Positions 5,691 to 52,237 of a DNA stretch of 64,000 bases are shown here, in pieces. Position 1 is the stretch's first letter. The number at the start of each line of letters is the position of its first letter. The notes under the pieces were generated by a model. That model saw only the letters and a program-made list of their open reading frames with translations, ran no database searches and was not told where the DNA came from. Position numbers and translations under genes: made by a program. This DNA comes from Blautia wexlerae DSM 19850 (lineage in GTDB: Bacteria; Bacillota; Clostridia; Lachnospirales; Lachnospiraceae): positions 1,052,001 to 1,116,000 of the forward strand of contig NZ_CP102267.1 in assembly GCF_025148125.1 (NCBI RefSeq). Direction: 5' to 3'.

Positions 5691-5776
5691 GACAGAAAAT
5701 AAAAGATTGACGGCAATAACGAGCAAGCCAGGAAAAGAAAATCAGAATAGCCGGCTTTGAGAGACAAAATAAATGT

Positions 5777-5919
5777 GTAACTGTTCAGTACCTTCACAGT
5801 TACGAGTCAAAATCCATTAAAAATCGCCTTCGGCGATGGGATTTTGACTTGTATGTCTCGGGATTTTGGCATGTTCATGCCAAAACACCTCGCGGGATAG
5901 TAGACTGCTGAATAGTTAC
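5777..5919. repeat. 143-base structured interspersed repeat, copy 1
   Basis: Copy 1 of a repeat whose second copy is at 35358-35500 in the opposite orientation. It contains a terminal hairpin (5777-5803, GTAACTGT paired with ACAGTTAC), a long stem with GTCAAAATCC paired with GGATTTTGAC enclosing ATCGCC/GGCGAT, and a third hairpin TTTTGGCAT/ATGCCAAAA. Outer ends are inverted repeats (GTAACTGTTCAG; GTAACTATTCAG on the other strand). It lies between folA and the ilvE terminator and codes for nothing recognisable. Confidence 0.85.
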
Positions 5920-5936
5920 AGAAATGTTTAAACAAA

Positions 5937-31970: not shown

Positions 31971-32000
31971 AACAACGTGTGATTTTTTTTCACAACAGTG

Positions 32001-32070
32001 CCTGCATGACTGGCGGAAGTAGGATTACCTACAGGGAGTGCAGCGAGTATATGAGCCGACCGCCTGGGCA
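32001..32070 (+). ncRNA. ZTP (pfl) riboswitch
   Basis: Matches the pfl motif: P1 CTGCA/TGCAG (32002, 32039), the conserved GACTGGCGG, a small GTAGG/CCTAC stem, GGGAG, and the hallmark GCCGACCGCCTGGGCA at 32055-32070. It senses ZTP/ZMP, which accumulates when 10-formyl-tetrahydrofolate is short. The 3' edge overlaps the 5' arm of the terminator at 32070-32117, as expected for an ON switch. The genes downstream make IMP from AICAR (ZMP), an ideal regulatory fit. Confidence 0.93.
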
Positions 32071-32117
32071 GCCTGGAAATTATTCAATGAATAAATAGGT
32101 TTCCCAGGCTTTTTTTA
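32070..32117 (+). terminator. Riboswitch expression-platform terminator
   Basis: AGCCTGG (32070-32076) pairs with CCCAGGCT (32103-32110), with extra A/T pairs above and a run of seven T after. The 5' arm begins at the last base of the aptamer core. Confidence 0.85.
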
Positions 32118-35317: not shown

Positions 35318-35357
35318 CATAGTTTATGAAGATTCCGTGAAGGATGGGGTGGAAAAT

Positions 35358-35500
35358 GTTACTGTTCACACACCACTATCCCGCGAGGTGTTTTGGCATG
35401 AATATGCCAAAATCCCGAGACATACAAGCCAAAATTCCATTGCCGCAGGCAATCTGGAATGAATTTTGGCTACGTTACTGAGAACGGAGTGAACAGTAAC
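35358..35500. repeat. 143-base structured interspersed repeat, copy 2
   Basis: Inverted relative to copy 1 (5777-5919) and exactly the same length. The core CTATCCCGCGAGGTGTTTTG and following hairpin are nearly identical. The long stem differs by paired changes (GCCAAAATTC/GAATTTTGGC here, GTCAAAATCC/GGATTTTGAC in copy 1). Outer ends GTTACTGTTCAC and GTGAACAGTAAC pair perfectly. It lies 80 bases upstream of the 3D-domain gene. Confidence 0.88.
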
Positions 35501-35579
35501 TGGAAAATTGCAAATTGGGAGGGGGTGTGCTATGATAGGACAGACGGAGAGAGACTATAAAGGAGTTGAGGCTCAGTTT

Positions 35580-52210: not shown

Positions 52211-52237
52211 GTTACTGAGAACAGAGTGAACAGTAAC
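52211..52237. repeat. Solo terminal hairpin of the 143-base repeat
   Basis: A 27-base hairpin with GTTACTG/CAGTAAC arms. It differs at a single base from the right-end hairpin of copy 2 (35474-35500) and lies in the leader of the trxB-like gene. Confidence 0.8.

Follow-up and report, generated by a model that had tools for sequence, protein, structure and literature searches.

Covarying stems in a short repeat of Blautia wexlerae: a probable IS66-mobilised MITE family of the Lachnospiraceae

Results

Two matched copies of a 143-base repeat

The window, by which we mean the whole analysed stretch of 64,000 nucleotides of the Blautia wexlerae DSM 19850 genome (contig NZ_CP102267.1, positions 1,052,001 to 1,116,000), holds two copies of a repeat of 143 bases each, copy A at 5777-5919 on the plus strand and, inverted, copy B at 35358-35500 on the minus strand. 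This had been reported in an earlier note made from the sequence alone and was found to be so, the equal length masking two 1-base indels that offset each other. Genes for a dihydrofolate reductase and a class IV aminotransferase both converge on copy A, and copy B is located directly upstream of a gene for a 3D-domain protein. Both copies are flanked by target-site duplications, matched at 7/8 positions for copy A (ATAAATGT at 5769-5776 on the left and AGAAATGT at 5920-5927 on the right) and at 8/8 for copy B (TGGAAAAT at 35350-35357 and again at 35501-35508). With the family model, copy B scores 167.2 bits and copy A 166 bits, the model that scored copy A being built from relatives plus a copy identical to A. 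The ends of copy A are of the GTAACTG type and those of copy B of the GTTACTG type, which is the commoner one among the host-genome copies listed. Elsewhere in the window, a ZTP riboswitch (31996-32076, plus strand, 56.7 bits) precedes an IMP cyclohydrolase-like gene (32148) by about 70 bases, and after this gene comes one with an AICARFT domain; together these plausibly form a purine-regulated operon.

The outer terminal inverted repeats of copy A comprise 12 bp and pair positions 5777-5788 with 5908-5919 (plus strand). The right one, CTGAATAGTTAC, also ends an IS66-family element of a relative (G011, locus L397). The left end is itself a palindrome of 27 bp (5777-5803, plus strand), composed of the outer GTAACTG and an inner arm CAGTTAC. 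It also occurs alone as a solo end; the window holds one such remnant at 52211-52237 on the minus strand, with a decayed duplication (6/8), and its comparison with three relatives gave no clear picture. The interior consists of a middle module (5806-5848, plus strand) with a 10-bp inner stem, a 7-base bulge and a 6-bp hairpin, in which 6/16 pairs show double changes, and of a conserved core, TGTCTCGGGATTTT-hairpin-AAAACACCTCGCGGGATA (5854-5899, plus strand).

A core of about 50 bases had been described as nearly identical in the two copies, and A and B indeed differ there at one loop base. The stem differences reported in the earlier note are also present: pair 2 of the inner stem is T-A in A and C-G in B, pair 9 is C-G and T-A, the hairpin reads ATCGCC/GGCGAT in one copy and ATTGCC/GGCAAT in the other, and in the outer stem pair 3 changes from A-T to T-A and pair 12 from G-C to C-G. 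The observation of two copies with matched stem differences is therefore confirmed. The stronger wording, that the stem has diverged only in matched pairs, is correct for these pairs but not for outer pair 7, a G.T wobble in A and G-C in B. Both copies fold far lower than their dinucleotide shuffles (z -8.65 for A and -6.26 for B).

Copy number, target duplications and insertion sites

In the host genome (4.69 Mb, one contig), a search for the core that allowed 3 mismatches gave 61 matches, the window copies being two of them, and a search for the 27-bp left end that allowed 2 mismatches gave 152. In order to keep the analysis of target duplications non-circular, 44 copies were picked from this genome by their end sequence only. 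Their flanks agreed at 8/8 positions in 31 cases, at 7/8 in 10 and at 2/8 in 3, whereas a shifted-flank control gave no case at 8/8 and 0.1% at 7/8. The duplications are richer in A+T than the flanks (77% vs 65%), and 4/119 copies lie within an ORF. At one pair of sites both the filled and the empty state were found: the relative G023 carries a full 143-bp copy (contig C12, 56214-56356) in duplicated AGTCTATC, and the host genome holds a single AGTCTGTC. With regard to the window copies, copy A is absent from the corresponding regions between genes in G023 and G001, whose flanks have diverged, and the flank of copy B aligns with G001 on one side only.

The 12-bp outer stem forming the terminal inverted repeats is paired in 93.4% of cells across the family. 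In being short and without coding capacity, and in having terminal inverted repeats and a target-site duplication, the family shows the traits of bacterial MITEs. Among the options raised in the earlier note, it is the MITE that agrees with the data, mobility being evident from the many copies, the 8-bp duplications and the filled/empty site. The repeat can be regarded as a MITE, its mobilisation being read from sequence comparison rather than from an observed transposition event.

At one locus of the host genome (L003, C1:3859277-3859633), an element with a ACGCTTCG middle and an A-type element lie about 70 bases apart. The plasmids and viral contigs searched gave no family matches. Whole or partial elements are present in seven short, unannotated GenBank records named 'Bacteriophage sp.' (MT839053.1 and six others), all of human faecal origin, which may represent bacterial DNA.

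Distribution and modular architecture

A DNA search of 61 genomes, host included, gave matches in 14, all of them Blautia and some to the end only. In a separate collection of named genomes, the record titles among the matches listed include Blautia, Fusicatenibacter, Oliverpabstia, Hominisplanchenecus and Anaerobium as well as uncultured Lachnospiraceae, Eubacteriales and Clostridia. With a covariance model built from 29 members, the family was detected in 53/299 genomes of the taxonomic family (52/298 genera, host included) and, in a class-level draw, in 2/291 genomes, both from the same taxonomic family and one of them the host; these searches used strict filters at which weak matches are lost. 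No match was listed outside the taxonomic family. Among 30 loci read from the model searches, 23 have the ends and duplications of 7-8/8, the duplication being part of the criterion.

Three architectures were distinguished, with the palindromic left end common to all. The first, to which the window copies belong, combines a CAAAAT middle with the CTCGGG/CCTCGCGG core, the second has a GATGCACA middle with this same core, and the third, of about 133 bp, joins a CAAAAT-type middle to a different right module, TTACGGTC...GACCT. This second right module, which reads GAATCAT..TTCTTACGGTC, hairpin GCAGTAAATGC and GACCT (with variation), replaces the core in the 133-bp class in other genera (L432-L438, L440-L443, L445 and L447-L453, less clearly L439 and L456). 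In further, longer variants the middle module is extended, namely in elements of 198 bp (L161, L223) and in elements of Oliverpabstia (L237), where a long hairpin has been added to it. Two 109-bp copies (L095, L137) are without the terminal hairpin between GGGAT repeats and lie in duplications of 7-8/8; this deletion is another slippage-type event. The interior is a chain of base-paired modules, namely the palindromic left end, the middle hairpin and the core or the alternative right module, shuffled between subfamilies.

Covariation of paired positions

Covariation was assessed in 29 diverse members, picked by sequence diversity from boundary-resolved copies, with 3/32 left out. The structure was named from single folds, RNAalifold being unusable on mixed families and partial on family 1. 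Pairing is present in 95.5% of 1276 cells. Double-sided changes were found at 11/44 pairs and in 90 cells, compared to 29.7 in shuffles, and 0/500 shuffles reached 90; with the partners slid out of register, the number of double-changed cells was at most 8. The count of further pair types was no higher than in shuffles (26 vs 25.4; 227/500 shuffles). The conserved pairing with real covariation that the earlier note had read from two copies thus extends to further homologues. The left local hairpin of 7 bp is paired in 95.1% of cells and is at least equal to the outer stem in pairing at all 7 positions for which the two compete. In L235 (GTATCTG/CAGATAC, right end CAGTTAC), L249 and L260, the left arms match each other and the right end differs.

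Origin of the matched stems

Private mutations in 37 sister copies (34 in total) comprise 23 in the 92 paired and 11 in the 51 unpaired sites, corresponding to rates of 0.25 and 0.22 per site (Fisher p 0.84; small sample), and the stem states resulting from them are GT in 6 and AC in 7 cases. In comparisons among 103 unique family-1 elements, sequences with up to 3 differences show 0 coupled changes vs 336 one-sided changes at paired sites. The coupled share is 0.2% at 4-10 differences, 2.6% at 11-15, 31% at 16-22 and 59% at 23-35, with these shares resting on non-independent sequence pairs. Since the mutations of the daughter copies are blind to pairing and coupled changes appear between subfamilies only, pairing seems to be kept in the source lineages rather than at each locus. 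An inserted copy would decay with indifference to pairing. The arms of source elements would stay matched, giving coupled changes between subfamilies and none between sister copies. We infer that the coupled changes originate largely in one step, through template switching between the arms, and matched arms would be retained since unpaired source elements spread less.

Template switching has been published for RNA hairpins (PMC8794818), and mutational homogenisation by this route could match the two arms of a hairpin by itself, with no selection on structure. Such a process would be in line with double transversions, present in 7/11 covarying pairs (e.g. C-G/A-T, C-G/G-C and A-T/T-A), and with the rarity of G.U states at these pairs (3/319 cells). 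However, 0 coupled changes against 336 one-sided ones in near-identical copies indicate that homogenisation is infrequent, and taken alone it leaves the persistence of one module architecture across genera unexplained. We consider homogenisation as the sole cause possible but rather unlikely.

Is the repeat a structured RNA?

In the earlier note, the covariation was taken to mean selection on a folded RNA. A regulatory or small structured RNA, spread by transposition and with its pairing selected in the transcript, would agree with the strong covariation in 29 members, the stable folds, the conserved G.U pairs kept on the plus strand of the core stem and the presence of the family in many genera. 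The plus strand is also the more stable one in 69/80 related family-1 sequences, but this holds for only 13/24 diverse representatives (<85% identity; a few with wrong or double boundaries, namely at least one wrong boundary and one tandem pair), and we treat the excess among the relatives as a lineage effect. Furthermore, private mutations that ignore the stems and divide about evenly between GT and AC speak against selection in a transcript, as do the scarce G.U states at covarying pairs mentioned above. Rare states in the wider set (GT 27 vs AC 54) run contrary to the plus strand but are not independent; their use as evidence for the minus strand was dropped, several of these states being common to whole lineages. 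Seen from the element, and based on simple ORF calls, the flanking genes are both sense in 31, both antisense in 44, divergent in 34 and convergent in 10 cases, and the co-directional cases also count against selection in a transcript.

At the gathering threshold, Rfam gave no match at the copies or at 20 further loci. With relaxed thresholds, the one hit of note was on the minus strand of copy A (5770-5852), which matches the whole model of Rfam GA-cis RNA (RF02987) at 32.4 bits, below the gathering score of 34.7, with little sequence match. GA-cis RNA was not found in copy B at E up to 5 nor at the 20 loci at gathering, and this likeness was taken as chance. A host RNA is not supported by these results, and we regard a structured RNA spread by transposition as improbable.

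Solo 27-bp ends

At least nine distinct 27-bp solos with perfect duplications were found in five genomes (L042, L146, L151, L152, L160, L219, L221, L227 and L229). A deletion between the direct repeats GTTACTGT could leave such a solo in an intact duplication. Solo L152 is 27 bp long and flanked by a perfect GATTACTT duplication. At its site, G023 is empty, whereas a longer copy in the same orientation is present in the relative G087, in which both of its ends can be read and the contigs break inside it. Judged from the sequences, the solos look like remnants of deletion between the GTTACTGT repeats, L152 being the one informative site and the other solo sites giving no clean comparison. The number of solos with perfect duplications in several genomes might also suggest a minimal unit that transposes independently. 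This idea is set back by the longer copy of G087, the direct repeats predict this very deletion, and 27 bp would give scant room for two bound ends; we therefore consider it quite improbable.

The probable partner transposase

The host genome has further fragments of the transposase gene besides its three PF03050 loci; in all three of these loci, which were the ones compared, GTTACTGTTCA is present at one end or at both. The host IS66-family element is complete, with a length of 2242 bp, ends GTTACTGTTCAA and TTGAACAGTAAC and the duplication TTTTGGTT on both sides, and shares its 11-bp ends and the 8-bp duplication with the MITEs. Its transposase scores 70.5 bits with PF03050 (DDE_Tnp_IS66; cut-off 23.1) and 143.4 bits with NCBIfam NF033517, under the cut-off of 180 of that model. 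IS66 transposition produces an 8-bp target duplication, and IS66 ends are described as starting with GTAA. The first bases are GTAA in copy A and in IS66 elements of G011, G021 and G024, and GTTA in copy B and the host IS66-family element. A scan of 33 IS66 loci yielded 9 rows (8 distinct elements) with inverted-repeat ends of at least 10/11 and an 8/8 duplication, and the transposases of the resolved elements show 27-100% identity to that of the host. The end types GTTACTTTTCACGG, GTAACTATTCAG and GTAACAGTTCAGCC of IS66-family elements in the genus recur as MITE ends.

The correspondence is not complete in every genome. The host IS66 transposase as query matched 19/64 genus genomes, with a fragment in G023, relatives at 26-30% only in G024 and no match in the MITE-bearing relatives G028, G029 and G030. 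In G024 the resolved IS66 element has GTAACAGTTCAG ends, and the left ends of the MITEs read there are for the most part GTTACTG and GTAACTG. The ends of the host A-type copies occur in 0/3 host PF03050 loci.

IS66-family insertion sequences and the MITE are alike in the terminal 11-12 bp and the 8-bp duplication. They differ in that the former have a transposase gene and 1.7-2.4 kb, whereas the MITE has no gene, 143 bp and an unrelated interior. This interior gave no family-model match (up to E 1) in the 33 IS66 loci, and pattern searches gave short degenerate hits only. The MITE thus did not arise from those insertion sequences by simple internal deletion, an origin that is frequent but not universal in MITEs, which also have ends in common with an autonomous element, as found here over 11 bp. 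The end sequences of 11-12 bp and the duplication length suggest that IS66 transposases probably move the MITE in trans. The transposase would bind the MITE ends and insert the element into AT-rich intergenic DNA.

REP/REPIN elements with their RAYT transposases are likewise palindromic, multicopy and extragenic, and the host genome has 13 matches to Y1 transposases, but REP/REPIN elements are not known to make target duplications, and in 0/10 Y1 loci fetched was the core or either form of the end (27 bp or 11 bp) present. The REP/REPIN option of the earlier note, with transfer of a folded single strand by a Y1 transposase, is therefore rejected as extremely improbable. IS66-type ends together with 8-bp duplications, and neither ends nor core at Y1 loci, point to IS66 transposases instead.

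Discussion

The most likely reading, in our view, is a non-autonomous MITE, present in Blautia and in other Lachnospiraceae, that is moved in trans by IS66 DDE transposases, has a modular interior and keeps its pairing at the level of source elements. From the interpretation given in the earlier note, conserved pairing, covariation and mobility as a MITE are retained; REP/REPIN and selection on a folded RNA are not.

Bacterial MITEs such as RUP, NEMIS, ERIC and Nezha (PMC3733652; general features reviewed in PMC10969869) are similar in being shorter than 300 bp, without genes and present in many copies. They, too, have terminal inverted repeats, duplicate their target, lie at AT-rich intergenic sites and are predicted to fold stably. 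The present family differs from them in its IS66-type ends, in an interior of covarying paired modules across many genera and in a palindromic left end leaving 27-bp solos. IS66 is not mentioned in the main text of PMC10969869, and the parts of PMC10969869, PMC3733652, PMC9769881 and PMC3189936 drawn on here describe other repeats and MITEs. Among the titles and abstracts listed, which cover few of the subscription journals, none was found on an IS66-linked family of Lachnospiraceae. While MITEs are known as a kind, this family with its modular, covarying and family-wide interior seems to be undescribed.

A more far-reaching idea is that the covarying hairpin modules act as a folded nucleic acid, either transient single-stranded DNA or a transcript, required for uptake by the IS66 transposase. 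We regard this as speculative and on balance unlikely. If true, it would mean that throughout one bacterial family a transposon parasite has acquired a conserved, structured interior that bears no relation to the element of the enzyme itself.

Covariation is widely taken as a strong sign of functional RNA. The family presented here is a natural many-copy case of strong covariation between lineages with no pairing constraint on individual copies, and RNA-discovery pipelines could report such MITEs as regulatory RNAs. The system permits a direct test of template switching, transposition and RNA function as the keeper of matched stems. For the gut Lachnospiraceae, the results describe a widespread superfamily of structured MITEs, whose several end types correspond to those of several IS66-family elements and in which solo ends mark old insertions.
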